From Gluconobacter japonicus (lineage in GTDB: Bacteria; Pseudomonadota; Alphaproteobacteria; Acetobacterales; Acetobacteraceae): DNA of 64,000 nucleotides. How positions within the stretch are numbered: position 1 is the stretch's first letter; each line of letters opens with the position of its first letter. Made by a program: the position numbers and the translations under genes. Shown here one piece after another: positions 7,982-55,921 of this stretch. The stretch spans positions 62,001-126,000 of the forward strand of contig NZ_BEWO01000002.1 in assembly GCF_002723975.1 (NCBI RefSeq), read 5' to 3'. The notes beneath the pieces are model-generated. The model ran no database searches and was not told the origin of the DNA. It saw nothing but the letters and a program-made list of their open reading frames with translations.

Positions 7982-9856
7982 TTGTCAGCGCCCAAGAACT
8001 CCCCCCCTGATGAGAACCGTCAGGAGGGCTTCCGCCGCGCCACCATCGCGACCCTTCGCGCTCTGGGCGGTACGCCTGACCAGAACGTTGACTTTCAGGG
8101 CGTGGTCGTGGGCAACCGACTGCCAGCCCCTCCGGCACCAGACTCGATTCAGTTGCCTTACATGTCGCGCAGCATGCACGACCGGGAAATCCAGAAAGTC
8201 CGTGGTGCAGCCGATGCCGCGGCCCTGAAACTCCGCCACCACAAAGATGGTCTGGACACGCATTTTCCCGAGCCACAGGCTCAGGAAGCGTTCAGCGCGC
8301 TTGAGCAGGTCCGCTGCGAGGTTTACGGCTCCCGGCATATGGCAGGCGTCCGCGCCAATCTGGACCAGCGCGTCATCCAGCAATGCGCCGAGGCTGGCTG
8401 CAACCGCATGGCCACCAAGGACGATATGCCCGCAGCCATGGCACTTGGCCTTCTGGCCCGCGAGGCCATGTCCGGCGAACATGCGCCTTCACAGGCAGGC
8501 CCGGCTCTCGATGCATGGCGCTCCTCCCTTTCGCCATCTGCGCGTAGCGCTCTGGCTGAAATGGCCGAAACACAGGGCGATCAGACAGCATTCGCCAAGG
8601 CGATCACGCATCTTCTGGGTGCCTGTCAGCTTACCGAACTGCCGGAAGAGATTGAGCAGCAGGCTCCGTCTGATGATTTTTCAGAAGACGAGCAACAATC
8701 TGAAGACGATGCAGCCGTCCCACAGGAAGACGAACAGACGCCCGCAGGCGAAGAGCCGGATCAGGAAGACGGGTATCAACCCGAGAGCGGCGAAAGCGGC
8801 GTCACAGGTGAGACGGAAATGTCTTCCGACGCGCTCGATTCCCCTGAAACCGGCTCGGAAGAAGCCGCTGGCCCCTCCGATCAGACGGGCGATGGCACAA
8901 GTGCGGGCATAGCGTCGTCCTACAAGGCCTATACGACGAAGTTCGACGAGGAAGTCGGGGCGGCTGATCTGTGCGATCCGGATGAACTGGACCGTCTCCG
9001 GCAGCAACTTGACCAGCAGCTTGTTCAGCTTCAGGGCCTTGTGTCCCGGCTGGCACACCGTCTGCAACGCCGCCTCATGGCGCAGCAGCAGCGCCGCTGG
9101 GAGTTTGAGCAGGAAGAAGGCATTATCGACGCCGGACGCCTCTCCCGCGTCGTGACCAATCCGACCCTGCCGCTGTCCTATAAGTATGAAACCGAAATGG
9201 AGTTCCGCGATACGGTCGTGACGCTCCTGATCGACAATTCAGGCTCCATGCGTGGTCGCCCAATTGGTACAGCAGCCATCTGCGGCGACATTCTGGCGCG
9301 CACGCTGGAACGCTGTGGCGTCAAAGTGGAGGTTTTGGGCTTTACCACCCGTCAATGGAAAGGTGGTCAAAGCCGGGAACAATGGGTCAAAAACGGGCGC
9401 CCACCTGAGCCAGGCCGCCTGAATGATCTGCGGCATATCATTTACAAGGACGCGGATACCCCTTGGCGTCGGGCTCGGAAAAATCTGGGCCTGATGCTGC
9501 GTGATGGTCTTCTTAAGGAGAACATTGACGGGGAATCGCTGCTCTGGGCCTGGAAACGCCTGAAACGGCGCCCAGAGCACCGCCATATCCTGATGGTGAT
9601 TTCAGATGGTGCGCCGGTAGATGACAGCACGTTCTCTGCCAATCCGCACAACTATCTTGAGAACCACCTGCGTGAGGTCATCAAGCGGATCGAGAGCGAT
9701 CGCAACACGGAACTTCTGGCTATCGGGATCGGCCATGACGTAACGCGGTACTATCGACACAGCGTGACCATCAGCTCCGCCGAAGACCTGGGCGGAACCA
9801 TGATGGCTCAGCTGAGCGAACTTTTTACGCCCGTCGGTCAGCGGCGAGCGCGATAA
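7982..9856 (+). CDS. cobT: Aerobic cobaltochelatase subunit CobT
   Basis: A 624-residue CobT. A helical N-terminal part is followed by a long acidic linker (about residues 220-310, mostly Asp/Glu/Ser/Gln) and a C-terminal von Willebrand A domain whose MIDAS begins DNSGS (about residue 417). It is the adaptor that couples the CobS AAA+ ring to CobN. The only plausible start is TTG at 7982, placed eight bases after GGTGGAG inside the cobS tail, which suggests coupled translation at reduced efficiency. The end overlaps the decarboxylase gene by 32 bases, tail to tail. Confidence 0.93.
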
Positions 9857-11237
9857 CCGCGTCAAGCATACGGTCGGTATCGGCGGTCGTGGTGCGGTGA
9901 TTGACGATCGCCGCCCTCACCGCCAGCCGACCGTTGATCCGTGTCGTGGACGGCGCTGCCACACCGCTTTCATGCAGGTCCTGCACAAGTTCGGACACGT
10001 CCTGATCTAACAGGCCATCAATCCCGAAACAGACAATATTCAGCGTCACTGGCGCCAGAAGAATAAGACCCGGTGTCATCTGGACACGATGTGCCAAGTT
10101 CGTCGCCACGCCGCAGCATTCTTCAACCATTTGCCCCATACGTTCGGAGCCATAATGGCCCAGCGTCATCCAGACCTTGAGCGCCCGAAATCCGCGAGAC
10201 AGATCCGGCCCAAAATCACAGAACCATGGCGCACCGCTCGCCAGGCCACGCGGTTCGCGGGTCAGGTAATCAAGGGACTGAGCAAAAGCAGCCGCATGCG
10301 CTTTTCGATCCCGCACAAGAACACATCCCGCGTCATAGGGAACCTGTGCCCATTTGTGGAAATCGAAAGCCAGACTATCCGCTTTCTCAATACCGGAGAG
10401 CGCCTTCTGAAACCGGAACGACAGACAAGCCAGAGCCCCAAACGCTGCATCGACGTGAAACCAGAGCCCGTTCTCACGGGCAATCGCTTCGATCCCGGCA
10501 AGATCGTCAATCGCGCCACAATCCACGGTTCCAGCCGTTCCGGCCACCATGAACGGGATATAGCCCGCTTCACGATCTTCCCTGATCATACGCTTCAATG
10601 CGATCAGATCCATCCTGTGATCTGCGAGAACCGGAACTCGTCTGAGGGCATCGCTGCCAAAACCCGCCAGATCGAACGCTCTCGGAAGGCAACCATGAGC
10701 AGTCGTCGCGGCATAGCCGACCATCTTACGGCCCCCCGTGCCTTGGGAGCGCAAGGAAATATCCTGCGCGCGACTGGCTGTGATGATGCTGATGAAATTG
10801 GCCATGGAAGACCCGGTCACCAGACAACCAGAGCCGTCTTCCGGCATGCCCACCATCGAAAGAGCCCAGCGAATGACTTCGCGCTCGACTTCATTGGCAG
10901 CATGACTGCGCCCACCACAGTTAGCGTTCATACCGCCAGCCAGCATCTCCGCCAGCATCCCTACGGGCGTTCCGGCACCATGCACCCAGCCCATGAAACC
11001 CGGATGGGTGTTTCCGTTGCCATACGGAACAACAAAATCCGTGAAGCGACCATGCAGTTCTTCGAGAGACTGCCCCTGTTCGGGGAAACCGGTTCTGAGA
11101 GCGTCACGGGCGTCATGCGGCATAGACTGCCAGACGGGCCCTTCCCCCACATGCTCCATACGATCAAACAGGGCATCGAGCATCTGGTGCCCCATCGCGC
11201 GGATGCCGCTCCAGTCTTCAGGGTCCAGTCCCGCCAC
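9825..11237 (-). CDS. PLP-dependent group II amino-acid decarboxylase
   Basis: A 470-residue fold-type I decarboxylase. The cofactor lysine is Lys 295 in DFHKW, the cofactor-stacking and aspartate region is FHVDAAFGA (Asp 263), and [13 protein letters not shown] near residue 77 matches the substrate-entry loop of aromatic-L-amino-acid decarboxylases. The substrate cannot be fixed from sequence; aromatic amino acids are likely. Start is GTG at 11237 with AAGGA nearby; the frame is closed by a TAG just upstream. It converges on cobT and has no obvious functional neighbour. Confidence 0.85.
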
Positions 11238-11311
11238 AAAGAGATCCTTTTTCGCTGCCAGATGTCTCTAGCCGCGATACAGACCTCCCGCTGCGATGTC
11301 ACGCAGCAGGC

Positions 11312-12130
11312 TCAGAAAAGCGCTGAATAGAGGTTAGATGATGTTGAAGAGCTGCCGCCCGTAAACAGGGACAGAACGCCATCAGAAGATCCGCTGCTGC
11401 CGTAGAGGGTCAGCATGCTCGCCGGGGTTGTAGTCTTGTCTGGATTGACCTGAAGAAGCGCCAGATACTGCTCTGCAAACCGTTGCACACCACTCGATGT
11501 GCTCAGCCGCGACAGATCCAGCTTGTCACTCAGCAGACGCACCTGTTGATCATAATCCAGTGCACCGAACTGAGTAGTGTCAAACCCGGCTACCTTCTCA
11601 GCCACCTTGAGAAGCTTCGGGTCCGCCATGATATTCGTGAGCTTCGTGTCAGACGTCACGGTCCGGGTAAAATAGAGCGCATCGCCCAGACCCGGCGTCT
11701 CTTCCTGAACGCTGCTTTCATAGCCATTCGTCAGATAATTCTGCGTAATGGTGGAGACTGTATCGGCCGAGGCCAGCGGCGACGTGGACCAGTCTGAAAA
11801 AGCCTTGGCAAATGCCTTCCAGGAAGCATTGCCACTTCTCTGCGCCAGCGACGTGGAAGATGTCGGATCCTGCGTCATAAGCTGTTTCAGAACAGCCGTC
11901 TGATCAATGTTTGACGACATGTTGTAAGCGCCAAGAACAACTTTCAGCGCCTTGTAATTCTTAAGCAGCTGATCGGGCGTCGTAATCGAGGACGCCTCAC
12001 TCGCGAATGTTGCAAGCCCCTGCCGGGAGTCGGAGCTTGTCTTCTCCCATTTATTCACGGCTGTCTGTTCGTCTTTGACGATGGACAGATACTGCGGCAC
12101 CGCTGGCATGGCGGAAATGGACGAAGACAT
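11312..12130 (-). CDS. DUF1217 protein (flagellum-associated family)
   Basis: A 272-residue protein rich in Ser, Thr, Leu and Gln, matching the DUF1217 pattern: an early VKDEQTAVNKW segment, repeated helical blocks, and TRTVTSDTKLTNIMADPKL then FGALDYDQQVRLL. Members are usually encoded in alphaproteobacterial flagellar clusters. There is no signal peptide. Here it stands alone, 74 bases upstream of the decarboxylase gene and divergent from an exported-protein gene. The ATG at 12130 was preferred over a GTG six bases upstream. Confidence 0.7.
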   Translation of the reverse strand: MSSSISAMPAVPQYLSIVKDEQTAVNKWEKTSSDSRQGLATFASEASSITTPDQLLKNYKALKVVLGAYNMSSNIDQTAVLKQLMTQDPTSSTSLAQRSGNASWKAFAKAFSDWSTSPLASADTVSTITQNYLTNGYESSVQEETPGLGDALYFTRTVTSDTKLTNIMADPKLLKVAEKVAGFDTTQFGALDYDQQVRLLSDKLDLSRLSTSSGVQRFAEQYLALLQVNPDKTTTPASMLTLYGSSGSSDGVLSLFTGGSSSTSSNLYSALF

Positions 12131-41188: not shown

Positions 41189-41315
41189 GATTCAAATTCC
41201 TAGCATCTGGTTGGACCTCCGCATGGCGACGTCCCTTGCGGAACACCAGAAAACCTCAGGGCCATGCGTGCGGATTGACCGCTTTCTCCCACGAGGGATG
41301 CCAGCGGACGAGCGC

Positions 41316-41344
41316 GATATGGCCGATCTTTGGTCAGATTGCAA
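41316..41344 (-). promoter_or_regulatory. Candidate promoter of rpsB-tsf
   Basis: On the minus strand TTGCAA (41339-41344) and CATATC (41316-41321) with 17-base spacing. The -35 box lies 16 bases after the dnaE stop. The resulting leader of about 120 bases could carry S2 autoregulation, as known in other bacteria. Confidence 0.5.
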
Positions 41345-41359
41345 GGGTTTTCCGCCAGA

Positions 41360-44300
41360 TCAGCGCTGTTCAGCCTTCTCGACCCCCCGAACAGTCCGTA
41401 GGCGTTCAGCCAGACGTGGTGTGACCCGATATGTGCCCGGAAGTGCGATTTCCACATCTCTCGTTTCTTCGAGAGAGGGCAGGAAAACAACTTTCCCGTG
41501 TCCTCCCCGCATTTCCGCCAACATTTCAGAAAGCGTGGGAAGCGCATCCATCTGCTTCAGCCATACGCGCATTTCAGACCGTTCAGCCGCAGCAGCGGTT
41601 TCGAGATCCATGACGCTTTGCGCCGTAATCCGCAGTGCATCTCCATCCAGTTTAAGCTCTGCTGTCACCAGAATAGCCTGTCCAGCCACCAGAAGATCCC
41701 GGCACGAAATCAGAGTTTCCGCGAAAAGCGTAACTTCACATCCGCCGCCGCTGTCCGAAAGGTTGACCCAGGCCATCTTTTTGCCAGTGCGGGTCGGACG
41801 CTCTTTCTTATCAACAACGCACCCCGCTATCTTGACGCGCATAGTGCCTGTTTTTGCAGCATTTTCCAGAGCGTTAGAGGGTGTGACACCCAGCCTTCTG
41901 AGAACCGTACGATAAGCATCCAACGGGTGAGCGCTCATATGAAAGCCAATGGCCGAGGCCTCAAGCGACAGGCGCTCGAAATCCGGCCACGGGCGCCCTT
42001 CATTCAACCGCAAAATCTCACGATCCTGACCGCTACCGCCAAACAATCCTGACTGGCCCATCTGCTGCTCCTGAGCCCGCGACTGCGCCCGACGTAACAG
42101 AATATCTGCACTCGAAAAAACGGTATGGCGATCCTTAAGAAGACTGTCAAAAGCTCCTGATTTTGCAAGACTTTCTATCTGTATTTTATTCAGGCTTTTG
42201 GGATCACAACGCTCTGCAAAATCCGTTAGATCCTGGAAAGGCTTATTACCGCGGGCGGCAACGACAGAGTCCATTGCGGCTGCACCAACACGCTTGATGG
42301 CGGATAGGGCGTATCGAATTCCTTGACGACCGTCCTCAAGTGTCTCGATCGAGAAATCTGCCATGGACTTGTTGATGTCGACAGGGAGAACTTTAATGTT
42401 CATCCGCCGCGCTTCCTGACAGAGGGCTGCCAGCTTATCCGTCTTTTCGCGTGCCAGTGACATGCAGCCCGCAAGGAAAGCAACAGGATGGTTCGCCTTC
42501 ATCCATGCTGTTTGATACGAAACCAGCGCATAGGCTGCAGCGTGAGACTTGTTGAACCCATAATCAGCAAAACGAGCCATAAGATCAAAGACTTCAACGG
42601 CTTTGTCTTGGGGGATTCCTCTGGCTGTTGCACCTTCCGTAAAGATCTCGCGCTGCTTCTCCATTTCGGACGCGATCTTTTTGCCCATGGCGCGTCTTAG
42701 AAGATCAGCGCCACCCAGACTGTAGCCGGCCATCTTCTGGGCGATCTGCATGACCTGTTCCTGATAGACCATGATGCCATAGGTCTCTTCAAGGATGTCA
42801 CGGATCTCTTCGTGCGGCGGCTCCCATGGTTCACCATGTTTGCGGCGGCAGTAATCCGGAATGTTGGCCATTGGCCCCGGACGATACAGAGACACGCCCG
42901 CAATCAGATCTTCCAGACGGCTGGCAGCCATCTGCTTGAGCATGTCCCGCATACCCGCGCCTTCGAACTGGAAGACACCGGCCGTATCCCCTTTGGCAAG
43001 CATTTCGAAGGTCTTGGTGTCATCCAGAGGAATACGTGAGAGATCGACGATAACACCTTGTTCTTTAAGGAAATCCAGACCTCTTTTCAAAATTGTCAGG
43101 GTCGTCAGGCCAAGGAAGTCGAACTTTACAAGACCGGCCTGTTCCACAAACTTCATGTTGTACTGGGTAACCAGCATATCGCTCTTTGGATCGCGATAGA
43201 GCGGTACAAGTTCGACCAGTTCACGATCCCCGATCACCACACCCGCAGCATGGGTTGAGGCATGGCGGTAGAGTCCCTCAAGCTGGAGCGCGATTTCCAA
43301 AAGACGCTTCAGGGCTTCATCACTGTCCCGCATTTCCTGCAGGCGCGGCTCTCCGTCGATCGCCTGCGCCAGCGTAACAGGCTTCGCGGGATTGTTCGGG
43401 ATAAGCTCGGCAACGCGATTAACCATGCCGTAAGGCAGACCCAGCACACGCCCGACATCCCGGACAGCCGCCTTCGCCTGCAGCTTTCCAAAAGTAATGA
43501 TCTGAGCGACGCGACTGCCGCCGTATTCTTCGCGGACATACCGGATCACTTCGTCACGGCGGTCCTGACAGAAGTCGATATCAAAGTCAGGCATCGAGAC
43601 GCGTTCCGGGTTCAGGAAGCGCTCGAACAGGAGCCCGAAAGGAAGCGGATCGATATCGGTAATGGTCAGGGCGTAAGCGACCAGTGAGCCAGCGCCCGAT
43701 CCACGTCCTGGCCCCACGGGAATATCATGAGCCTTGGCCCATTGGATAAAGTCGGCAACGATCAGGAAGTAACCTGGGAATCCCATCTTCGCGATGATGT
43801 CGAGTTCCGTCTGAAGACGTTCGGAATAGATTTTCCGTTTATCTTTATCGGCATTGATCGCCTCAAGCCGCTTTTCCAGCCCTTCCCACGCCATGGCCCG
43901 CAGCGTTTCTTCTTCCGTTGAACCTTCGCGAACCTTGGGACAGATGGGCAGCAGTGGCTTGCGGGTACAGGCGGCCACGGCGCATTTCTGCGCAATAATC
44001 AGCGTGTTATCGCAGGCTTCCGGAAGATCCTTGAAAAGCTCCCGCATTTCGGCAGGCGTCTTGAACCATGCCTGCGGTGAAACATGCCAGCGGTCAGCCT
44101 CCGCCATGGTCCGCCCCTGTGCGATACAGATCAGCGCATCATGCGCTTCATGCATCTGCGGCGTGGGAAAGAAGCATTCATTGGTCGCGACAAGAGGAAT
44201 GTCGAGCTTATCGGCCAGAGGCACAAGAATACTCTCAATTTCCTGCTCGCCAGCCTCACCCAGACGATTCAGTTCGACTGCAATGTTCTGGGGAAATGCC

Positions 44301-44782
44301 TCCATCAAACGGCGCAGAAGAACTTCCGCCTCGTCTTTCTGTTCATCATAAATCAGGCGATTGATCGGCCCACGATTACCCCCGGTGAGCAGAAAAAGAC
44401 CATCCGCATGCTGGCACAGAACATCTACGGCAACGGTGGGGTCAGCCGGATCACCGTTCAGGAAGCCATGCGAGGACAGGATCTGCAGATTGGCAAGACC
44501 CGTTTCGTTCCGTGCCAGAACCACCAGCGGCTCGGAAGGCGCGCCGGGTTTTGTGCTCCGCGATGGTAGGGAGAGCTGGCAGCCAACGATAGGTTGAACA
44601 CCGGCATTGCGACAGTACAGGGAAAATTCCAACGCCCCGAAAAGATTGCCACTATCCGTCAGGGCGACGGCAGGCATGGCATTTTTGGTGGCGAGCCCGA
44701 CAAGATCTGCAATGCGAATGGCTCCCTGACTCAGGGAGTATGCGGAGTGATTGCGAAGATGAACGAAATCGGCATGAGACAT
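41360..44782 (-). CDS. dnaE: DNA polymerase III subunit alpha
   Basis: A 1140-residue DnaE1-type replicative polymerase. It has an N-terminal PHP domain (FVHLRNHSAYSLSQG), the polymerase active site with GPGRGSGAGSLVAY and PDFDIDFCQDRRDEVI (catalytic aspartates), the HxH region ASTHAAGVV, YQEQVMQIA, the tandem helix-hairpin-helix and a C-terminal OB fold (VKIAGCVVDKKERPTRTGKKM in part). It ends the birA-coaX-rnj-proS-lolC-lolD-dnaE run, starting 61 bases after lolD. Confidence 0.97.
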   Translation of the reverse strand: MSHADFVHLRNHSAYSLSQGAIRIADLVGLATKNAMPAVALTDSGNLFGALEFSLYCRNAGVQPIVGCQLSLPSRSTKPGAPSEPLVVLARNETGLANLQILSSHGFLNGDPADPTVAVDVLCQHADGLFLLTGGNRGPINRLIYDEQKDEAEVLLRRLMEAFPQNIAVELNRLGEAGEQEIESILVPLADKLDIPLVATNECFFPTPQMHEAHDALICIAQGRTMAEADRWHVSPQAWFKTPAEMRELFKDLPEACDNTLIIAQKCAVAACTRKPLLPICPKVREGSTEEETLRAMAWEGLEKRLEAINADKDKRKIYSERLQTELDIIAKMGFPGYFLIVADFIQWAKAHDIPVGPGRGSGAGSLVAYALTITDIDPLPFGLLFERFLNPERVSMPDFDIDFCQDRRDEVIRYVREEYGGSRVAQIITFGKLQAKAAVRDVGRVLGLPYGMVNRVAELIPNNPAKPVTLAQAIDGEPRLQEMRDSDEALKRLLEIALQLEGLYRHASTHAAGVVIGDRELVELVPLYRDPKSDMLVTQYNMKFVEQAGLVKFDFLGLTTLTILKRGLDFLKEQGVIVDLSRIPLDDTKTFEMLAKGDTAGVFQFEGAGMRDMLKQMAASRLEDLIAGVSLYRPGPMANIPDYCRRKHGEPWEPPHEEIRDILEETYGIMVYQEQVMQIAQKMAGYSLGGADLLRRAMGKKIASEMEKQREIFTEGATARGIPQDKAVEVFDLMARFADYGFNKSHAAAYALVSYQTAWMKANHPVAFLAGCMSLAREKTDKLAALCQEARRMNIKVLPVDINKSMADFSIETLEDGRQGIRYALSAIKRVGAAAMDSVVAARGNKPFQDLTDFAERCDPKSLNKIQIESLAKSGAFDSLLKDRHTVFSSADILLRRAQSRAQEQQMGQSGLFGGSGQDREILRLNEGRPWPDFERLSLEASAIGFHMSAHPLDAYRTVLRRLGVTPSNALENAAKTGTMRVKIAGCVVDKKERPTRTGKKMAWVNLSDSGGGCEVTLFAETLISCRDLLVAGQAILVTAELKLDGDALRITAQSVMDLETAAAAERSEMRVWLKQMDALPTLSEMLAEMRGGHGKVVFLPSLEETRDVEIALPGTYRVTPRLAERLRTVRGVEKAEQR

Positions 44783-44843
44783 GCCATCATTCTATCAGGA
44801 CCGACGAGCAGATACAGCGTTCTTCTCGTCAGTTCAGGGCAAT

Positions 44844-45533
44844 TCAGAAAGGAACGAGCTTTCCATCCCGCAACGTAACCGTGCGATCCATGCGTGCTGC
44901 GAGTTCCTTGTTGTGGGTTGCGATAAGGGCTGCAACGCCTTCCTCACGCACCACACGCAGGAGTTCGTCAAAAACATGGTCGGAAGTCGCGATATCCAGA
45001 TTGCCCGTCGGTTCATCCGCCAGAAGAAGCTTCGGGCGATTGGCAAGCGCACGGGCAATCGCCGTGCGCTGCTGCTCTCCACCAGAAAGACGTCCAGGCA
45101 GGGAGTTGAGGCGATGAGACAGACCAAAACGACCTAGCAGATCCTCTGCACGCACTTTTGCAGCTTTTGCCGAAACGCCAGCCACCAACTGAGGCAGCAT
45201 CACGTTCTCACAAGCCGTGAATTCACCAAGAAGATGATGAAACTGGTACACGAAGCCGATCTGATCCCGGCGCACAGCCGTTCGCACGGTATCGCTCAAA
45301 CCGCTGACCGGCTTCTCGCCAATATAGACAGTACCTTCCGTTGGTGCTTCCAACAATCCTGCCAAATGAAGCAGCGTGGATTTACCAGTACCGCTTGGCG
45401 CCACAAGGGCTACAATTTCACCTGGATAAAGAGAAAACGATGCTCCAGAGAGAATCTCCAGAGTCTCTTCACCAGATTTGAAGCGACGGGTCAGATTTTC
45501 CAGCCGTAGAGCCGTCATTCGGGCTTCACTCAT
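44844..45533 (-). CDS. lolD: Lipoprotein-releasing ABC transporter ATPase LolD
   Basis: A 229-residue ABC ATPase. Walker A is APSGTGKST, the Q-loop region [20 protein letters not shown] carries the LolD-type sequence, the signature is LSGGEQQR and Walker [12 protein letters not shown]. With LolC/E it extracts mature lipoproteins from the inner membrane and hands them to LolA. The ATG at 45533 overlaps the lolC stop by eight bases; an ATG five codons later is possible. Confidence 0.94.
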
Positions 45534-46773
45534 GACGCAGAGCCTCGATCGGGTCAGTCCTTGCGGCTCTCCAGGACGGATACAGTGTAGCCAGCAGCGA
45601 CAACACCAGTGACATGGCAATCACCTCTCCAACCTGCGACCAGACAAGTTTGGCTGGCAGCCGCTCAAGAAAATAGACTTCCGGATTGAAAAGATTGGTT
45701 CCCGTCAAAGACTGGAGCCACTGGCGGATACGCTCAATATTGAGCGCAAACGCGATACCCAGTGCTGACCCTGCCGCGGTTCCAACAATCCCGACAAATG
45801 CACCATTCATCAGGAAGATTCTCATGATCGCGCCGCGGCTTGCACCAAGCGTACGAAGCACAGCGATATCGCGCGTCTTATCCTTCACCATCATGATGAG
45901 GGACGAAATCACATTGAAGGCCGCAACCAGAATGATGAGCGTCAGGATAAGGAACATGACGTTCTGCTCGACCGTGACGGCATCGAGAAAACCATTCGCG
46001 CTCTGCGTCCAGTCCAGAACCCGCAGACGTGGGTCATCAAGGCGCTGCACAATGGCCTGACGTGTAGGCTGGACGTTCGAGGGGTCGTTGGTCGAGACCT
46101 GAATCAAGGAAACGGCATTCCCAAGCATCAGAAATTTCTGTGCAGCAGGAAGCGGTACCAGAACGATGTTTGAATTATAGTCGTTCCAGTTGGCATCGAA
46201 GATCGCGGCCACATGATACGTTTTCACACGCGGCATTGTGCCAAACGGCGTTGCCTGACCATCCGGGGACAGGAGCGTAATGGGGGAGCCGATCGTCAAG
46301 CCAGCACGATCTGCCATCGTCGTCCCGATGGCAACCGCGTCGTCTCCAGTAAAGCGATCAATCGAGCCGGCGATGACACCACTACTCAGAGCACGCCAGT
46401 CCCGAAGATCCTGCTGGGCGACACCCTGAACCTCTGCGCCAGTCGAATACCGACCAGCTTCGACAAGAACGGTTCCCTGCGCCATGGGAATGACTGACTT
46501 CACGCCCGGCACAGAACGAATAGCCTCGACGTCATTCTGATAGGCCTCGATAGGGCGCCCGTAGCCAAACACGGTGAGATCCCCGTGCAAGCCAAGGATA
46601 CGCCCCATCAGATCAGCCTTGAACCCGTTCATCACCGACATGACGATGATGAGCGTGGCCACCCCGAGCGCAATGCCGACCAATGAGAAAACTGCAATGA
46701 TCGAGGCGAAGCGTTCGCCACGACGGGCGCGCAGATAGCGCCCCGCCACCATACGCTCGAAGCGGCCGAACAT
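45526..46773 (-). CDS. lolC: Lipoprotein-releasing ABC transporter permease LolC/E
   Basis: A 415-residue permease with an N-terminal helix ([27 protein letters not shown] in part), a large periplasmic MacB-like domain and three C-terminal helices ending in [20 protein letters not shown]. As in most Alphaproteobacteria a single LolC/E-like permease probably forms a homodimer with LolD. It overlaps proS by one base (TGATG) and lolD by eight, so the three genes are translationally coupled. Confidence 0.93.
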
Positions 46774-48089
46774 CAGGCTGCTCCGATCTTGGCCAGCGCT
46801 TCAGCCACCGGCAGTTCGAACCGCTCGCCGTCTGCACGACGCTTCAGTTCAACCTTGCCTTCCTTGGCACCGCGCGGACCAACGATGATCTGCCAGGGAT
46901 GACCCATCAGATCAGCATCATTGAACTTCACACCTGCACGCTCGGAGCGGTCATCGTACATGAAGTTCTCAGAATCTGTTCCGTAGATCTCTTCGCAGAT
47001 TGCATCGCAGGCTTCGTCGCCCGGGCGCAGATTCAGGATCGCAGCTTTGTATGGCGCGACGGAAGCAGGCCAGATGATCCCAGCCTCGTCATGCGAGGCC
47101 TCGATGATCGCGCCGACCAGTCGGGACACACCGACGCCATAGGAGCCCATATGAGGCGAGAACTTCGCCCCATCGGCGCCGCTGACTTCGATCCCCATGG
47201 ATTCCGTGTATTTGGTGCCGAAGTAGAAGATGTGGCCCACTTCAATGCCACGCCCTTCCCGCTTCCGGTCATCCGGCACTTCTGCCCAGGCAGCCTCATC
47301 ATGCTTCTCATCCGTTGCGGCGTAGTGATCCGTTACGGAAGAGAAGAATGCAGCGAGATCTTCCTCGTTGTCACAGTCCACCGGACGGCCCAGCCAGTCC
47401 TGCTCTTCAAGAGCCGCGTCAAAGAACACGCCGCTTTCACCTGTCGGGGCCAGAACCAGAAACTCATGGCTGAGATCGCCACCGATCGGTCCCGTATCTG
47501 CAACCATTGGCACAGCGCGAACGCCAAGACGCTGGAAAATCCGCAGATAGGACAGCATCATGCGGCGATAGCTGTTAACCGCGCCCTGATAGTCTGCATC
47601 GAAGGAGTAGGCATCCTTCATGAGGAATTCACGACCACGCATCACACCGAAGCGCGGGCGAACCTCATCACGGAACTTCCACTGGATGTGATATAGCGCC
47701 TTCGGAAGCTGCTTGTAGGAACTGACGGACGATCCGAAGATATCCGTGATCATTTCCTCATTGGTCGGCCCATACAGCAGCTCACGGCCATGACGGTCCT
47801 GAATACGGAGCATTTCCGGACCGTAAGCGTCATAACGCCCCGAACGGCGCCACAGATCAGCAGACTGAAGCGTCGGCATCAGGACTTCCTGAGCACCAAT
47901 GGCATCCTGCTCTTCGCGGATGATCTTCTCGATGTTCCGCAGGACGCGCAGACCAGCTGGCAGCCAGGCGTAAATACCGGACGATGTCTGACGAACCAGA
48001 CCTGCACGCAGCATAAGGCGATGAGACGCAATCTGCGCCTCCGCCGGGACTTCCTTCAGCGTCGGCTGAAAGGCTTTACTCAGACGCAT
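46773..48089 (-). CDS. proS: Prolyl-tRNA synthetase
   Basis: A 438-residue class II synthetase of the short alphaproteobacterial type without the INS editing domain of the enteric enzyme. Motif 1 region [18 protein letters not shown], the [10 protein letters not shown] loop, motif 2 [27 protein letters not shown] in part, and a motif 3-like [16 protein letters not shown] are seen. Prolyl-tRNA proofreading would have to be supplied by a separate protein. It lies between rnj and lolC in the conserved cluster. Confidence 0.95.
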
Positions 48090-48104
48090 ACTCTATTTCT
48101 TCTC

Positions 48105-49763
48105 TTAGACGCGCAGCAGATGAACATCGACAAGCGGACGCTTCTGAAGCTTGCGCCCCAGAGCACGGCGCAGGGCCGTCTTGGCTGCGTCACGGAATGC
48201 CGTGTCGTCCTGTCGCAGCTCATCCGGGATTTCGTCAATGGAATCAGCGAATTCTTCCTGAATGCGAATGCTTTCCGGATCTTCCGCCTCAAGCAGACCA
48301 GGTGCACTGATCTTGGGCTCGCCAATGACATAGCCTTCGTCATCTACAGCGAAACTCGCAATGACCATGCCGTTAAACAGCATCTTGCGGCGGGCAGCCA
48401 GAACGCCACCCGTCATCGGCAGAAGGCGCCCACCATCCAGTGCCAGACGACCAGTCGGCGCCGTGTCAACAACCCGGACATCACCTGGAGACAGATTCAG
48501 AATGTCACCATCTTCCAGCAGGATCGGCTCAGAACCCATCTCGTGCGCCAGAGCGGCATGAGCCGTCAGATGACGCCATTCACCATGGGTCGGAATGCTG
48601 TATTTCGGGCGGACAATCCCGTACAGCACACGAATGTCATCGCCCGTTGCGTGGCCAGACGTATGGACCTTCGCGTCCTTGTCCGTCAGAACCGTCACGC
48701 CACGACGGGACAAATTGTCCTGCACGGCCATGACAGCCTGCTCATTCCCCGGAATGACGCGTGAGCTGTAAATAACCGTATCGCCTTCGCCGAGCGAAAT
48801 ATTCGGATGCGTATCCGAGGCGATGCGAGACAGCGCAGAACGAGGTTCGCCCTGACTTCCCGTGATGATCATCAGAAGATTATCATCATGGATATCGCGT
48901 GCATCCTGCTCCGTCAGGAACGGCGGCAGATCACTGAAATAGCCGCACTCACGGGCAGCCGTTTCAAGATTACGCAGGGATCGCCCCACGATCATGACCG
49001 CACGACCGGCGGACATGGCAGCCTTCGCAATACTCTCAACGCGCGCCACGTTACTGGCAAAGCACGTCACGGCAACGCGGCCATGAAGGCTCGTAATCAG
49101 ATCCGTCAGGCCCTTGCGAACATCAGCCTCAGACTCTGAACGCCCTTCCTTCATGACGTTGGTGCTGTCACCCACCATCGCCAGAACGCCCTCGTCTCCA
49201 AGGCGACCGAATTCTTCAAGATCCGTCTTAGGGCCGACCAGCGGGTTCTCGTCGAGCTTCCAGTCGCCCGTATGGACAATGAGACCATGCGGCGTACGAA
49301 GCGCAACAGCCTGCGCTTCAGCCACAGAGTGGGTGACAGCGACAAACTGAAGATCGAAAGGTCCGACGTGAAACCGCGAGCTTGGCATCACGACATGGAT
49401 CTTTACCTGATTGACCAGATGAGCCTCATGCAGCTTCCGACGCAGAACAGCCGCAGCAAACGGGGTCGCATAAACCGGGCAACGCAGATACGGCCACAGA
49501 TGTGCAACAGCACCAAGGTGATCTTCGTGCGCATGGGTAATCACGAGGCCGCAGAGGTCTTTTGCTCGATCCGCAATAAATGTCGGGTCCGGCATCAGGA
49601 CTTCGGCTTCAGGCGTATCATTGCCCGAAAAGCCAATGCCACAGTCGATGGCGAGCCAGGTTTCCTTGTTGTTTTTCGTGAGACGATAAAGATTGAAATT
49701 CATGCCGATTTCGCCCGTCCCACCCAGAGGCAGGAAGGACAAACCGTCAGATGTATCCGTCAT
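48105..49763 (-). CDS. rnj: Ribonuclease J
   Basis: A 552-residue RNase J, a metallo-beta-lactamase/beta-CASP ribonuclease with 5'-3' exo and endo activity. The zinc ligands HAHEDH are at residues 77-82, with HTGDWKLDENP and GDSTN further on, the beta-CASP HTSGHATGDD region around 375, and a C-terminal dimerisation domain. It probably works beside RNase E in mRNA and rRNA processing. It follows coaX after 51 bases and precedes proS. Confidence 0.94.
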   Translation of the reverse strand: MTDTSDGLSFLPLGGTGEIGMNFNLYRLTKNNKETWLAIDCGIGFSGNDTPEAEVLMPDPTFIADRAKDLCGLVITHAHEDHLGAVAHLWPYLRCPVYATPFAAAVLRRKLHEAHLVNQVKIHVVMPSSRFHVGPFDLQFVAVTHSVAEAQAVALRTPHGLIVHTGDWKLDENPLVGPKTDLEEFGRLGDEGVLAMVGDSTNVMKEGRSESEADVRKGLTDLITSLHGRVAVTCFASNVARVESIAKAAMSAGRAVMIVGRSLRNLETAARECGYFSDLPPFLTEQDARDIHDDNLLMIITGSQGEPRSALSRIASDTHPNISLGEGDTVIYSSRVIPGNEQAVMAVQDNLSRRGVTVLTDKDAKVHTSGHATGDDIRVLYGIVRPKYSIPTHGEWRHLTAHAALAHEMGSEPILLEDGDILNLSPGDVRVVDTAPTGRLALDGGRLLPMTGGVLAARRKMLFNGMVIASFAVDDEGYVIGEPKISAPGLLEAEDPESIRIQEEFADSIDEIPDELRQDDTAFRDAAKTALRRALGRKLQKRPLVDVHLLRV

Positions 49764-49814
49764 AGTTGTTCCTTACATTTGTTAACATCATCAGTGATAT
49801 TCATTGCCGAAAGC

Positions 49815-50612
49815 CTACATGCCTTCAGGGGAATGGGTGTGCTGAGCCATCGCATTACGATCAGCCAGAAGACGGAGGCCATCCAGGGTCAGATCAGGGG
49901 CCATCACGTCAAACAGGTTGGTGCCCTCTGAAAACAGAGGCGCGAGACCACCTGTTGCAATAATCTTGGGGCGACCGCCCATTTCTTCGGAAATTCTTCC
50001 TACGATCCCTTCAACCAGGCCAACATAGCCCCAGAAGAGTCCGGAACGCATGGCAACGCTTGTGCTTCGGCCAATCGCGTTCAGAGGACGCCCGATGCTC
50101 ATACGTGGCAAACGGGCAGCAGCTCTGTGCAAAGCGTCGATGGAAAGATTAACGCCCGGAGCAATCGCTCCACCGCAGTACTGGCCATGTTCATTCACGA
50201 CATCAAACGTCGTTGCCGTGCCAAAATCAACAACAATGAGAGGGCCGCCATAAAAGTGCTGGGCTGCAAGACCGTTCAAACGGCGGTCTGCTCCAAGTTC
50301 GGAAGGATTATCAACCAGCGCTTCAATGCCCCACTCCAGACCTGCATTGGCTACAAGCGGCTCAACATCCAGCCACTGCCTGCAGAAACGACGTAAATCG
50401 TAAAGCGCCGCAGGAACAACCGTTCCGATGATAGCACGTGTGATGGAGCCAGCATTCAGCCCAATGCGATCAAACAGGCCCAGAAGCCAGACAGCGTATT
50501 CGTCAGCAGTACGGGAGTCGCTCGTGGACATGCGCCATTGACCGACCCACGACGATCCATCGTGAACTGCAAACACAACATTCGTGTTGCCAGCATCAAT
50601 GACGAGAAGCAC
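49815..50612 (-). CDS. coaX: Type III pantothenate kinase
   Basis: A 265-residue CoaX, the first enzyme of coenzyme A synthesis. The ATP-binding start [10 protein letters not shown] (residues 2-11), [21 protein letters not shown] and the TGGLAPLF segment are typical. It starts with GTG at 50612, sixteen bases after the birA stop. Unlike type I enzymes it is not inhibited by CoA. Confidence 0.94.
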
Positions 50613-50628
50613 GTTTCAATCCGGTCCT

Positions 50629-51351
50629 TCAGTCCAGCAAGATATCGCCGGTTACAACCGGTATGATTTCACCACTTGGAAGCGCAAGAAGCAGACGTCC
50701 CTGCTCGTCCAATCCTGAAAATGAACCTGATATATATGTTTCACGGCGCTGAACCGCAAGATGACGTCCGACAGGATGCGCACGGTCAAGCCACGCTTCC
50801 CGAATTGGAGCAAATCCTGCAGCTTCCCAGACACCGACCCAATGATCCATCTGCAAGGTCAGGTTACGACCAAAAACCACGGGATCAGGGGGCGCAGCCA
50901 CTTCGGACAACGCGGACAATTTGCGGCCCTCAATTTCGGGAGCTTGCCGGAGATTAGCTCCAATGCCAACGACGATCCATTTGTGATCTGCACGTCCCCC
51001 TGCTTCGATCAGAACGCCTGCCATCTTGCGTTCAGAGAGCAGAAGATCATTCGGCCATTTCAACATGAAATCAGCTTCACCCGTACTGAACTGCCGCGCA
51101 GTCTCGTAGAGGCTCAGAGCCGTCAGAAAAGGAATAGCAGCCAGAAAATCTGTTGCATTCACAGGTCGGAAAAGAAGAGATATTGCCAGATTACCGCCAG
51201 GATCGACCCAGCTTCTACCACGAGTTCCGCGCCCAGAGGTTTGGGCAAAAGCTTGAATGGCGAGCTTTTCTTGCGCTCCAGCCTCAGCTTTTTCTTTACA
51301 GAGATCGGAAGTCGATCCCAACGTCTCATACAATTCGAAACGCCAGGCCAT
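50629..51351 (-). CDS. birA: Biotin--[acetyl-CoA-carboxylase] ligase
   Basis: A 240-residue monofunctional biotin protein ligase without the N-terminal DNA-binding domain of enteric BirA. The STSDLCKE start, the GRGTRGRSW biotinyl-AMP loop, the LKWPNDLLL lysine motif and a C-terminal SH3-like barrel are visible. It begins 20 bases after the 3' end of tRNA-Val, leaving no room for its own promoter, so it is probably transcribed with the tRNA. In many Alphaproteobacteria nuoN precedes birA. Confidence 0.94.
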   Translation of the reverse strand: MAWRFELYETLGSTSDLCKEKAEAGAQEKLAIQAFAQTSGRGTRGRSWVDPGGNLAISLLFRPVNATDFLAAIPFLTALSLYETARQFSTGEADFMLKWPNDLLLSERKMAGVLIEAGGRADHKWIVVGIGANLRQAPEIEGRKLSALSEVAAPPDPVVFGRNLTLQMDHWVGVWEAAGFAPIREAWLDRAHPVGRHLAVQRRETYISGSFSGLDEQGRLLLALPSGEIIPVVTGDILLD

Positions 51352-51371
51352 ATGTACAGTCAGTCTTCATG

Positions 51372-51446
51372 TGGTGGGCGATGACAGGATTGAACTGCCG
51401 ACCCTCTCGGTGTAAACGAGACGCTCTACCGCTGAGCTAATCGCCC
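51372..51446 (-). tRNA. tRNA-Val (anticodon UAC)
   Basis: A 75-base tRNA with encoded CCA. The acceptor stem GGGCGAT pairs with ATCGCCC, the anticodon arm has a TCTCG/CGAGA stem around a TTTACAC loop (anticodon TAC), and the T arm contains GTTCAATCC. It lies between hup and birA on the same strand. Confidence 0.95.
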
Positions 51447-51463
51447 TCAGAAAACACGTGGCC

Positions 51464-51491
51464 TATATACACGGTTCTGAGCGCCCGTAAA
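51464..51491 (-). promoter_or_regulatory. Candidate promoter of tRNA-Val and the birA cluster
   Basis: On the minus strand TTTACG (51486-51491) and TATATA (51464-51469) with 16-base spacing, placing the start about ten bases before the tRNA. Since birA follows the tRNA by 20 bases with no terminator, this promoter may serve birA and later genes. Confidence 0.5.
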
Positions 51492-51504
51492 GACACCCAG
51501 AACC

Positions 51505-51529
51505 ATAAAAGCGAATTTTTATTCGCTTA
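51505..51529 (-). terminator. Terminator of hup overlapping its stop codon
   Basis: An 8-bp stem (51509-51516 with 51521-51528, loop AAAA on the transcript) begins inside the last codons of hup and includes its TAA in the loop region; the transcript continues TTTTATGG, a short U-tract. It separates hup from tRNA-Val. Confidence 0.65.
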
Positions 51530-51806
51530 CGGCGTCCTTAAGACCCTTGCCCGGCTTGAAACGGACAGAGGTGGATGCCGGAATGTCGATCTCTTCGCCC
51601 GTGCGCGGGTTGCGGCCCTTGGCAGCCTTACGCGTAGCGGTCACGAAGCTACCGAAGCCCACGAGACGGACTTCCTGCTTCTTGGCGAGCGTCTTCTCGA
51701 TCGTGCTGAACACCGCATCGACAACTTCGCTGGCCTTTGCCTTCGGAAGATCGGCGGCGTCTGCAACGGCGGCGATCAGTTCCTGCTTGTTGAGGGGCTT
51801 CTCCAT
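51519..51806 (-). CDS. hup: HU-family DNA-binding protein
   Basis: A 95-residue HU. Typical blocks are LNKQELIAAVADAADLPKAKA, EVRLVGFGSF and the DNA-binding arm RKAAKGRNPRTGEEIDIPAS with the conserved proline, ending VRFKPGKGLKDAV. It is an abundant nucleoid protein. The ATG at 51806 fits the family length. Its leader carries an 11-bp hairpin (51829-51869) downstream of a good promoter. The lon-hup order is conserved in Alphaproteobacteria. Confidence 0.95.
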   Translation of the reverse strand: MEKPLNKQELIAAVADAADLPKAKASEVVDAVFSTIEKTLAKKQEVRLVGFGSFVTATRKAAKGRNPRTGEEIDIPASTSVRFKPGKGLKDAVSE

Positions 51807-51944: not shown

Positions 51945-54497
51945 TTAGTGTGGAAGTGCCGCCGGAGAGGCTTTCTCGCCAGCAATTCCACCTATTGGGT
52001 CCACACTTTCATCCCATTCAATTGCCTCAGGCATGCGCGTGAGGGCAATTTTCAGAACCTCATCGACATGGGCGACTGGAATGATCTTGAGCGCATGACG
52101 GACATTTTCAGGAACCTCTGCAAGATCCTTTTCATTGTCCTTCGGAATGAGAACCGTCTTGATTCCAGCTCGCAATGCAGCCAGCAGCTTCTCTTTCAGG
52201 CCGCCAATCTCCAGCACACGCCCACGAAGCGTAATTTCGCCCGTCATCGCAACATCCCGGCGAATGGGGATCTGCGTCATGATGCTGACGAGAGACGTTG
52301 CAAGCGCAATACCCGCGGACGGACCATCCTTCGGGGTTGCTCCCTCCGGAAGATGAACGTGAATATCCCGCTTTTCAAAGAGCGGCGGCCGGATACCGAA
52401 ATCCTGTGCCCGTGAGCGGACATAAGACAGGGCTGCTGCAATGCTTTCCTGCATCACATCACCCAGTTTACCCGTCTGCTTCACCTGCCCCTTACCGGGA
52501 ACCATAACGCTTTCGATGGTCAGGATCTCACCGCCAACCTGTGTCCAGGCCAAGCCGGTTACGACACCAACCATATCCTCCGTCTCGGTTTCTCCGTGAC
52601 GGAAACGACGCACGCCTGCGTATTTACCAAGATTCTCTGGTGTGATTTCAACGTGCGTTACGCCAGTCGTGATGATTTCCTTCACAACCTTACGGGCCAG
52701 ACGAGCAATTTCGCGCTCGAGATTTCTGACCCCTGCCTCACGAGTATAAGACCGGATCAACTCAAGAAGCGTCTCGTCAGAAACAGTCCACTCATCAGGC
52801 TTGAGATTATGAGCCTCCGCCTGCTTGGAGAGCAGATGTCGACGCGCAATCTGTACCTTCTCGTCTTCCGTGTAGCCCGAGAGATTGATGATCTCCATGC
52901 GGTCCAGAAGTGGCTGCGGCATATTGAGGCTGTTGGCCGTTGTCACGAACATGACGTCTGAAAGATCGTAATCAACCTCCAGATAATGATCGGCGAAGGT
53001 GGAGTTCTGCTCCGGATCCAGCACTTCAAGAAGCGCGGAAGACGGATCACCTCTCCAGTCAGCCCCCAGCTTGTCGATCTCATCCAGCAGGAACAACGGA
53101 TTGGACGTCTTCGCCTTTTTCATGCCCTGAATGATTTTCCCAGGCATGGAACCGATATATGTCCGGCGATGACCGCGGATTTCCGATTCGTCACGCACAC
53201 CACCAAGGGACATACGAACGTACTGACGGCCCGTTGCCTTGGCGATCGAGCGTGCCAGAGACGTTTTACCGACACCCGGCGGCCCAACGAGGCACAGGAT
53301 TGGTCCCTTGATCTTCTGGGAACGCGTCTGCACGGCAAGATATTCAAGGATGCGCTCCTTGACCTTCTCAAGACCGTAATGTTCGGCTTCAAGCACACCT
53401 TCAGCGTGCGTGAACTCCTTGGTGATCTTGGAGCGCTTTTTCCACGGAATACCCAGCAGCCAGTCCAGATAATTCCGGACGACTGTGCTCTCTGCGGACA
53501 TCGGGCTCATACCGCGCAGCTTCTTCAGCTCGGCATGGGCCTTTTCCTTGGCTTCACGGCTCAGACGGGTCTTGTTGATCTTCTCTTCAAGCTCGGCAAG
53601 TTCATCCTTGCCGTCTTCGCCTTCTCCAAGTTCCTTCTGGATCGCCTTGAGCTGCTCGTTGAGATAATACTCACGCTGCGTCTTCTCCATCTGCCGCTTC
53701 ACACGGTTTCGGATGCGCTTCTCAACCTGCAGAACCCCGATTTCCGTCTCGATATGAGCAAACACGCGCTCGAGACGCTGCTCGGCGGAAGGCATCTCAA
53801 GAATTTCCTGCTTTTCAGAAATCTTGAGATTCAGATGGCTCGCAATCGTATCCGCAAGCTTGGAGAGATCATCGATCTGATTGATCGAGACCATGACCTC
53901 AGGCGGGATCTTCTTATTGAGCTTTATATATTGCTCGAACTGGGAAACCGTCGAGCGCCCAAGTGCTTCGAGATCACTGCCTGGCGTCGCGGAGAGCGGC
54001 GCATCTGCAATTTCTTCAACCTCGGCCTCGAAATGCCCGTCCACGTCAAACAGTCGCGTGATGTGAACCCGGCGCGTGCCTTCAACGAGAACCTTTACTG
54101 TTCCATCTGGCAGCTTGAGAAGCTGCAGAATGGTGGAGACCGTCCCGTAGCGATAGATATCGTCCACAGATGGATCATCCTGCGAGACGTCTTTCTGCGC
54201 GACAAGAAGGATCTGTTTGCTGTCCCGCGTAACTGCCTCAAGAGCCTTTACAGATTTCTCACGGCCAACGAAGAGCGGAACAATCATATGCGGGAAAACG
54301 ACAATGTTCCGCAGCGGAAGAACCGCCATGACATCGTGACGAGCAGCCGGAGCGGCCTCCGTCACAACTTCTGCAGGCACAGCTTCTTTGGGAGCTTTTG
54401 TCGCACGAGGTCTGCGGACGGTCTTTTTTTCAACGACCGCAGCATCGTCCACTTTTTTTGTGCGGCGACGCGTCTTGGGTTTTGTATCGTCAGTCAT
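51945..54497 (-). CDS. lon: Lon protease
   Basis: An 850-residue Lon (LonA). An unusual basic/acidic N-terminal extension of about 55 residues (KTRRRTKKVDD, RRPRATKAPKE) precedes the substrate-binding LAN domain (VLPLRNIVVFPHMIVPL), a coiled coil, the AAA+ module with Walker A GPPGVGKT, and the protease domain with the catalytic Ser in DGPSAG (about residue 725) and Lys in LRAGIKTVLIPK. It degrades misfolded and regulatory proteins. It sits between clpX and hup, with a terminator upstream. Confidence 0.97.
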   Translation of the reverse strand: MTDDTKPKTRRRTKKVDDAAVVEKKTVRRPRATKAPKEAVPAEVVTEAAPAARHDVMAVLPLRNIVVFPHMIVPLFVGREKSVKALEAVTRDSKQILLVAQKDVSQDDPSVDDIYRYGTVSTILQLLKLPDGTVKVLVEGTRRVHITRLFDVDGHFEAEVEEIADAPLSATPGSDLEALGRSTVSQFEQYIKLNKKIPPEVMVSINQIDDLSKLADTIASHLNLKISEKQEILEMPSAEQRLERVFAHIETEIGVLQVEKRIRNRVKRQMEKTQREYYLNEQLKAIQKELGEGEDGKDELAELEEKINKTRLSREAKEKAHAELKKLRGMSPMSAESTVVRNYLDWLLGIPWKKRSKITKEFTHAEGVLEAEHYGLEKVKERILEYLAVQTRSQKIKGPILCLVGPPGVGKTSLARSIAKATGRQYVRMSLGGVRDESEIRGHRRTYIGSMPGKIIQGMKKAKTSNPLFLLDEIDKLGADWRGDPSSALLEVLDPEQNSTFADHYLEVDYDLSDVMFVTTANSLNMPQPLLDRMEIINLSGYTEDEKVQIARRHLLSKQAEAHNLKPDEWTVSDETLLELIRSYTREAGVRNLEREIARLARKVVKEIITTGVTHVEITPENLGKYAGVRRFRHGETETEDMVGVVTGLAWTQVGGEILTIESVMVPGKGQVKQTGKLGDVMQESIAAALSYVRSRAQDFGIRPPLFEKRDIHVHLPEGATPKDGPSAGIALATSLVSIMTQIPIRRDVAMTGEITLRGRVLEIGGLKEKLLAALRAGIKTVLIPKDNEKDLAEVPENVRHALKIIPVAHVDEVLKIALTRMPEAIEWDESVDPIGGIAGEKASPAALPH

Positions 54498-54655: not shown

Positions 54656-55921
54656 TCAAGCAGACTGTTCTGTCGGTTCGCTTTTGCCCTTCCCGTACAC
54701 ATAAACCGGGTTGGCCTTGCTCTCCGCCACTTCACGGTTGATGACGACTTCCTCAACGCCTTCCAGTCCTGGAAGATCGAACATCGTCCCAAGCAGGATG
54801 TTCTCCATAATGGAACGAAGGCCACGGGCACCGGTCTTGCGTTCGATAGCCCGCTTGGCGATGCCGGAAAGTGCGTCTTCCGTGAAGGACAGTTTGACCC
54901 CTTCCATCTCGAAAAGGCGCCCATACTGCTTTGTCAAAGCATTTTTCGGCTTGCTGAGAATCTGGATCAGGGCAGCTTCATCAAGATCATTCAGCGCTGC
55001 GATAACCGGCAGACGACCAATGAACTCCGGAATAAGACCGAACTTGAGCAGATCTTCAGGCTCTACTGTCTGAAGAATTGCCCCCAGACGACGCTCATCC
55101 TCAGAACGCACATCCGCGCCAAAGCCGATGCCTGATCCTTTGCCACGAGCCGAAATGATCTTGTCCAGCCCCGCAAAAGCACCACCACAGATGAACAGCA
55201 TGTTCGTGGTGTCAACCTGCAGGAACTCCTGCTGCGGATGCTTGCGACCACCCTGCGGCGGCACGGACGCAACCGTCCCTTCCATAAGCTTCAGAAGCGC
55301 CTGCTGTACGCCTTCGCCTGAAACATCACGGGTGATGGACGGATTGTCGGACTTCCGCGAGATCTTGTCGATTTCGTCGATATAGACAATGCCGCGCTGC
55401 GCACGCTCGACGTTATAGTCAGCAGCCTGAAGCAGCTTCAGGATGATGTTCTCAACGTCTTCACCCACATAACCGGCTTCGGTCAGCGTTGTGGCATCTG
55501 CCATCGTGAATGGGACATCAAGAATACGAGCCAGCGTCTGCGCAAGCAGCGTCTTACCCGAACCTGTAGGACCAATCAGAAGAATGTTGGATTTCGCGAT
55601 CTCGATATCGCTGTTCTTCTGCGCATGGGCCAGCCGCTTATAATGGTTGTGAACGGCGACCGACAGCGCGCGCTTGGCCTCGAACTGCCCAATGACATAA
55701 TCGTCCAGAACCTTGCAGATTTCCTTGGGCGTCGGAACACCGTCGCGGGATTTCACAAGGTGCGTCTTATGCTCCTCGCGAATGATATCCATGCAGAGTT
55801 CAACACACTCATCACAGATGAAAACTGTTGGACCAGCGATCAGCTTGCGAACTTCGTGCTGGGATTTCCCACAGAACGAGCAATACAGGGTGTTCTTTGA
55901 ATCGCCGGATTTGTTGCTCAT
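54656..55921 (-). CDS. clpX: ATP-dependent Clp protease ATP-binding subunit ClpX
   Basis: A 421-residue ClpX. The zinc-binding domain has Cys 14, 17, 36 and 39; the AAA+ core has [12 protein letters not shown] (Walker A), IVYIDEIDK (Walker B), the GYVGED pore loop and the IGF-type loop involved in ClpP docking, here GSGIGFG. It unfolds SsrA-tagged and other substrates for ClpP. It follows clpP with a 197-base gap that contains a terminator-like hairpin, so it probably has its own promoter as well. Confidence 0.97.

Follow-up and report, generated by a model that had tools for sequence, protein, structure and literature searches.

The question raised by this locus is what once lay between two genes that now almost touch. 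In the 64,000-nucleotide stretch of Gluconobacter japonicus DNA analyzed here (the window), birA starts 20 nt downstream of a tRNA-Val gene, and a sequence-only reading had taken this place for the site at which the complex I (nuo) operon was lost. We consider it highly probable that a single old deletion of the native complex I operon left its scar at the tRNA-Val/birA junction, that birA and the genes following it are now most likely expressed from the tRNA-Val promoter, and that the native nuoM was lost too. The genome that contains the window comprises 3,156,896 bases in 75 contigs and is listed as 99.99% complete. On the minus strand of the window, the order is clpX, lon, hup, tRNA-Val(TAC), the 20-nt spacer, birA, coaX, rnj, proS, a lolC/E-type gene, a lolD-like gene, and dnaE, with the individual features as follows.

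54656 to 55921, minus strand: clpX (NF003745, over cut-off).
51945 to 54497, minus strand: lon (NF008053, over cut-off).
51519 to 51806 (start chosen by us), minus strand: hup, encoding an HU/IHF-like DNA-binding protein of 95 aa (best score 79.4 bits, under all cut-offs).
51372 to 51446, minus strand: tRNA-Val (TAC), called by ARAGORN, with an encoded CCA end.
51352 to 51371, minus strand: spacer of 20 nt, very probably the junction left by the nuo deletion (intact relatives have 13.3 to 16 kb at the same place).
50629 to 51351, minus strand: birA, biotin protein ligase, 240 aa (TIGR00121, 111.5 bits; cut-off, 83.1).
49815 to 50612, minus strand: coaX, type III pantothenate kinase (NF009844, over cut-off).
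48105 to 49763, minus strand: rnj, RNase J family (TIGR00649, 392.9 bits; cut-off, 400).
46773 to 48089, minus strand: proS (NF008979, over cut-off).
45526 to 46773, minus strand: lolC/E-type permease gene (TIGR02212, over cut-off).
44844 to 45620 (listed ORF start; the true start may differ), minus strand: lolD-like ATPase gene (TIGR02211, 253 bits, under the cut-off of 307.75).
41360 to 44782, minus strand: dnaE (NF004226, over cut-off).

The tRNA call and the family models confirm the arrangement as it was first described, with 20 bases between tRNA-Val and birA and no nuo gene among the ten main ORFs around the junction (tig and clpP lay outside this scanned set). Both flanks are intact and in the ancestral order, as had been claimed; the family models bear this out for clpX-lon-hup-like on one side and for birA-coaX-rnj-proS-lolC/E-lolD-like-dnaE on the other. 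The tRNA-Val(TAC) gene is present as a single full copy, a search of its own genome yielding one 100% match and a runner-up that is 75% identical. The RNase J of the window is 99% identical to that of G. thailandicus, 98% to that of G. frateurii, and 91% to that of G. oxydans NBRC 14819, which places the window genome closer to the first two species than to the third.

What do relatives hold at this place? NuoD, RNase J, and Lon were sought in 150 Acetobacteraceae genomes, each with a completeness of 90% or more, and the positions of the matches were compared. lon and rnj lay on one contig in 110 of them, with NuoD between the two in 86 and the site closed up in 24 (the closed genomes). The lon-rnj distance was 15.0 to 21.5 kb in 85 of the genomes with NuoD between and 79.6 kb in one; in the 24 closed genomes, it was 2.2 to 3.2 kb. 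In another 31 genomes the two genes lay on different contigs (NuoD beside one of them in 20, with 11 uninformative), and nine genomes had no match to rnj or lon. We then read the loci at all 24 closed sites and at 16 from a selection of 20 intact sites in closer relatives. All 16 intact loci run from tRNA-Val through 13.3 to 16.0 kb to birA, with nuoA starting about 210 to 480 nt after the tRNA gene (where readable) and the last nuo ORF ending 0 to 58 nt ahead of the estimated birA start (in the intact loci listed). In Acetobacter pomorum, family models confirmed NuoH, NuoL, and NuoN, the last immediately before birA; in other loci, the nuo genes before birA were identified by ORF reading. A NuoN-type ORF also adjoins birA in a locus of Rhodoblastus, a member of another order.

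The comparison that the sequence-only reading had called for, with nuo-carrying Acetobacteraceae, therefore places nuo exactly between the two flanks (86/110 genomes and 16/16 loci read), and given this ancestral order and the absence of nuo here, its proposal of a deletion at this junction holds. That reading had attributed the order tRNA-Val-nuo-birA to many Alphaproteobacteria; it stands for the Acetobacteraceae, and beyond the family it is represented by the single Rhodoblastus locus, as NuoN-birA. In one Acetobacter locus (L104, genome G144; about 8100 to 11500), transposase-like ORFs seem by eye to split nuoG, an interruption that may represent complex I decay in progress.

The age of the loss was addressed with a tree of 60 rows built from five neighboring proteins of this locus, in which some rows represent the same genome twice (e.g., G049 and Neokomagataea anthophila). 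The 36 closed rows form one clade (UFBoot, 100), and the closed state is nested within the intact state; the position of G044 as the first branch in this clade has a support of only 71. The clade includes Gluconobacter, Neokomagataea, Bombella, Asaia, and Swaminathania. The earlier link to a lack of complex I in some G. oxydans strains was thus too narrow: since the closed rows form a single clade with support of 100, the closed junction is, as judged from these sequences, one old loss common to a clade and not a strain trait. The polarity could in principle be reversed, with the closed junction ancestral and nuo inserted behind tRNA-Val in the other lineages, and tRNA genes are indeed common sites of integration and insertion. 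We regard such an insertion as extremely improbable, given that most genomes (86/110), more distant genera among them, have nuo at this site, that the closed rows form an inner clade, and that Rhodoblastus, from a different order, has a NuoN-type ORF directly before birA.

Besides the window, the named closed loci comprised 20 from Gluconobacter, 2 from Neokomagataea, 10 of Bombella type, and 8 from Asaia or Swaminathania; another Neokomagataea locus (L018) was excluded because its sequence ends before birA. The spacer measures 19 to 22 nt in the 20 other Gluconobacter loci, 21 nt in the 2 Neokomagataea loci, and 18 to 22 nt in the 10 Bombella-type loci, and these similar lengths argue that the 20-nt spacing is not due to chance. 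All 33 loci of these three groups (window included) combine an 18- to 22-nt spacer with an encoded CCA end. The spacer sequences are diverse (14 distinct among 21 Gluconobacter, 1 in 2 Neokomagataea, and 10 in 10 Bombella-type loci), and none of the words AGGA, GGAG, GAGG, and GGAA occurs in the last 18 nt before birA in any of the 33. A Shine-Dalgarno-like word is present in all eight named Asaia/Swaminathania loci (with the first in-frame ATG taken as the start). Among the 24 closed genomes of the family survey, the spacer is 18 to 94 nt by alignment, or 4 to 55 nt to the first in-frame start; for 12 of them the alignment gives 27 to 94 nt (G090 being counted from its second tRNA), and 4 of the 24 have a Shine-Dalgarno-like word. 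Genome G090 (locus L079) carries two tandem tRNA-Val(TAC) genes before birA, at 3376 to 3450 and 3577 to 3651 on the minus strand.

This variety could be taken to mean that several independent deletions, rather than one, occurred at the same place: spacer sequences are unrelated between groups, their lengths by alignment spread widely, G090 has its tandem tRNA-Val copies, and complex I genes have been lost or gained more than once within the closed clade. Yet the divergence of short spacers requires no second event, and all closed rows fall into one fully supported clade (UFBoot, 100). We consider repeated deletion very unlikely and retain the single old loss.

How, then, is birA expressed? 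In the window, tRNA-Val and birA share a strand, and the gap between them has neither a terminator nor the space for a promoter (a scan of the 20-nt spacer found no terminator-like site). Three features precede the tRNA gene.

51509 to 51528, minus strand: terminator-like hairpin overlapping the hup stop (one found by the scan, 1.8 expected by chance).
51473 to 51504, minus strand: covarying 12-bp hairpin between hup and tRNA-Val, overlapping the promoter-like pair.
51464 to 51491, minus strand: promoter-like pair read from the sequence, TTTACG (51486 to 51491), 16 nt, TATATA (51464 to 51469).

The promoter-like pair lies where a promoter had been proposed upstream of tRNA-Val. The pattern TTTAC-N16..18-TATATA precedes tRNA-Val in 20 of the 21 Gluconobacter loci, window included (the exception is G. 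wancherniae), but the other named closed loci (Neokomagataea, 2; Bombella type, 10; Asaia/Swaminathania, 8) lack it, so that among these loci the candidate promoter is seen only in Gluconobacter. A consensus promoter scan found no minus-strand match in 41300 to 51600; it also missed the TTTACG/TATATA pair, since its second hexamer must end in T. In the 12-bp hairpin, 216 of 216 cells are paired, versus 34 to 55% in slid controls (21 aligned Gluconobacter loci, 18 of them distinct). Six of its 12 pairs have changed on both sides, a count that was reached by 7 of 500 shuffles and that relatedness inflates. Its loop contains the -35-like element, and it is without a U tract.

Taken together, the little room for a promoter, the upstream promoter-like pair, and the covarying hairpin behind hup suggest that tRNA-Val and birA are likely cotranscribed. 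Alternatively, birA may have a promoter of its own, in the tRNA gene or in the spacer, and not be cotranscribed with tRNA-Val. A promoter inside the tRNA gene or farther downstream may exist; however, 18 to 22 nt is too short for a full promoter, the spacer sequence is not conserved, and the consensus scan returned nothing on the minus strand from 41300 to 51600, so we think a separate birA promoter unlikely. Cotranscription has a parallel in the E. coli thrU-tyrU-glyT-thrT-tufB operon, a mixed tRNA-mRNA operon. In both cases, a tRNA gene is followed immediately, on one strand, by a protein gene, and the gap leaves scant space for a promoter. Unlike the tufB operon, the tRNA-Val/birA arrangement probably arose by deletion of an intervening operon, and the mixed transcript is predicted. 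birA does not appear in the main text of PMC5756330.

We propose the following course of events. Before the deletion, birA lay directly after nuoN, most likely as the cotranscribed tail of the nuo operon. A single old deletion would have removed the native complex I operon from between two retained genes, bringing birA and the genes behind it to about 20 nt after tRNA-Val, and they would now most likely be transcribed from the tRNA-Val promoter in a mixed tRNA-mRNA transcript. Once the tRNA 3′ end matures, a birA mRNA would presumably be released; its leader would measure about 20 nt and lack a Shine-Dalgarno-like sequence, and translation would proceed without one. Native nuoM, already detached from the operon, would have been lost as well, leaving no native complex I.

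The loss of nuoM concerns a second site. In 8 of the 10 intact loci listed, nuoN follows nuoL directly in the native operon; of the other two, G031 has an intervening ORF as long as a nuoM gene, and G077 was unreadable. A NuoM search of 26 intact genomes located the best match outside the native operon in 17 and within it in the remaining 9, which include G031 and other more distant genera. The detached gene lies between mutL and parE in four of six loci read (L155, L156, L157, and L160) and is not beside mutL in L158 and L159. A full-length example from the acetic acid bacteria is given here.

L155, 6227 to 7744: detached nuoM, between mutL and parE.

One genome (G089) has an operon copy of nuoM plus a detached copy. 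No NuoM match was found in the 12 closed genomes without NuoD, nor was nuoM present at mutL in 20 loci read of the 25 in the closed clade (the 24 closed genomes and G169). Of these 20 loci, 7 retain parE close to mutL, whereas in 13, window genome included, parE was not seen within the stretch, so that only the 7 show the empty nuoM site plainly. Judging by these searches, the native detached nuoM is gone as well, and the loss is two-part. The separation of nuoM from the nuo operon is already visible in A. pasteurianus gene lists of PMC5158111 and PMC3751514.

Is complex I absent from the genome as a whole? The genome-wide search for nuo genes that had been recommended gave no match in the window genome for NuoH (PF00146; the same search matches 11 of 14 control genomes), NuoF (TIGR01959; 10 of 14), or NuoM (TIGR01972; 13 of 14) and no true NuoD over cut-off, the one match scoring 59.3 bits against a cut-off of 459.35. 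As judged on these four subunits, no copy of the lost operon exists elsewhere in the genome, and the genes for NuoD, NuoF, and NuoH, by which we recognized a native or fused-NuoCD complex I (NDH-1), are lacking. The weak NuoD-like match, a 495-aa protein on contig C4, was considered as a surviving complex I and rejected, because its matches are only partial (Complex1_49kDa, 47 bits) and the genome has no NuoH or NuoF. It belongs to a minus-strand cluster (L002:8373-14004) with a 161-aa NuoB-like protein, the 495-aa divergent NuoC/D-like protein itself, and four ORFs of 173 to 415 aa for which no credible Pfam or NCBIfam match was found; we take the gene order of this cluster to recall that of hydrogenase-4. 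NuoD-like matches under cut-off occur in all 26 Gluconobacter-genus genomes. Only one of the 150 genomes (G061; closed junction, 2.0 Mb) is without any NuoD-like match at E 0.001, the divergent one included.

The closed junction by itself does not imply the absence of complex I, since a NuoD, one per genome, is encoded at another place in 12 of the 24 closed genomes; its frame spans about 600 aa and represents a fused NuoCD. Same-junction relatives with nuo elsewhere had been named in advance as evidence against the loss. Such relatives exist to the letter, but their fused NuoCD marks a different operon, so they qualify the loss and do not refute it. A second NuoD lies elsewhere in 9 of the 86 intact genomes, and one further genome with a single fused NuoD (G021) has lon and rnj on different contigs, with birA, coaX, and rnj on the 14 kb fetched and no tRNA called there. 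Three genomes (G020, G023, and G044) have a second NuoL-like and NuoM-like pair apart from the fused-NuoCD operon. Both types of complex I, with separate NuoC/NuoD and with fused NuoCD, thus occur in the Acetobacteraceae, and the window genome has neither. PMC12361115 describes clusters of the Nuo14 and Nuo13 types and, in Komagataeibacter saccharivorans, nuo genes on a plasmid.

In a NuoCD tree of 23 rows, the sequences of Asaia, Swaminathania, and their allies group in a single clade, in which G044 branches first and the branching agrees for the most part with the species tree; the exceptions are nodes of weak support and the position of Swaminathania. The upstream flank of the fused-NuoCD operon carries a gene family common to nine closed genomes that is not found in G044, G027, or G102. 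G027 and G102, both closed, have a distant NuoCD type, 54 to 59% identical to the other twelve rows compared. Within the genus Gluconobacter, a true NuoD occurs in 1 of 26 genomes (G169). Its NuoCD groups with those of G055 and G067 (support, 100), which by their place in the tree are probably Komagataeibacter, and on this ground we rejected the idea that the G169 nuo genes are an ancestral remnant. From the distant type in G027 and G102, together with the grouping of G169, it appears that complex I returned on two or more occasions. A 13-gene complex I operon is reported for G. thailandicus NBRC 3257 in PMC4149004; G. thailandicus F149-1 (L003) has the closed junction.

The sequence-only reading implied that the deletion at this junction directly made the organism free of complex I. 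The window genome, with neither a native nor an alternative complex I, is what one would expect in that case, but half of the closed genomes keep a fused-NuoCD complex I, and in nine of these it adjoins an upstream gene of one shared family. The deletion can therefore be told apart from the complex I-free state, and we consider the direct route possible although doubtful. One tentative scenario, which we find plausible while not rating it as probable, is a relay. Here, a fused-NuoCD complex I would have come before the split of Gluconacetobacter, Komagataeibacter, and Gluconobacter-Asaia and made the native enzyme dispensable; the native operon at tRNA-Val/birA and the detached nuoM would then have been lost; the Gluconobacter-Bombella line would later have dropped the newcomer, leaving birA and housekeeping genes under a single-copy tRNA promoter; and complex I would have come back from outside at least twice.

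The loss of nuo is already known; what is clearer here is its site, its age, and its two-part nature. According to PMC4596401, Go. oxydans has no nuo operon, having lost, with As. bogorensis, the one common among acetic acid bacteria, while a different one was acquired, perhaps through transfer, by As. bogorensis and Ga. diazotrophicus. The absence or loss of the operon in Gluconobacter oxydans also appears in PMC2765452, and PMC3751514 notes that it may relate to lower growth yields. The loss described in these three sources is the same as that in the window genome; the portions consulted give no site, junction, multigenus count, or separate nuoM loss. Among the literature matches listed, including those on orphan nuoM, no title concerned the tRNA-Val/birA junction. 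A site and an age can now be given to the loss that PMC3751514 links to the low growth yield of G. oxydans. That loss belongs to a clade and can be separated from the complex I-free state. Moreover, the 33 loci with an 18- to 22-nt spacer constitute a natural test of a protein gene placed behind a tRNA without a Shine-Dalgarno-like sequence.
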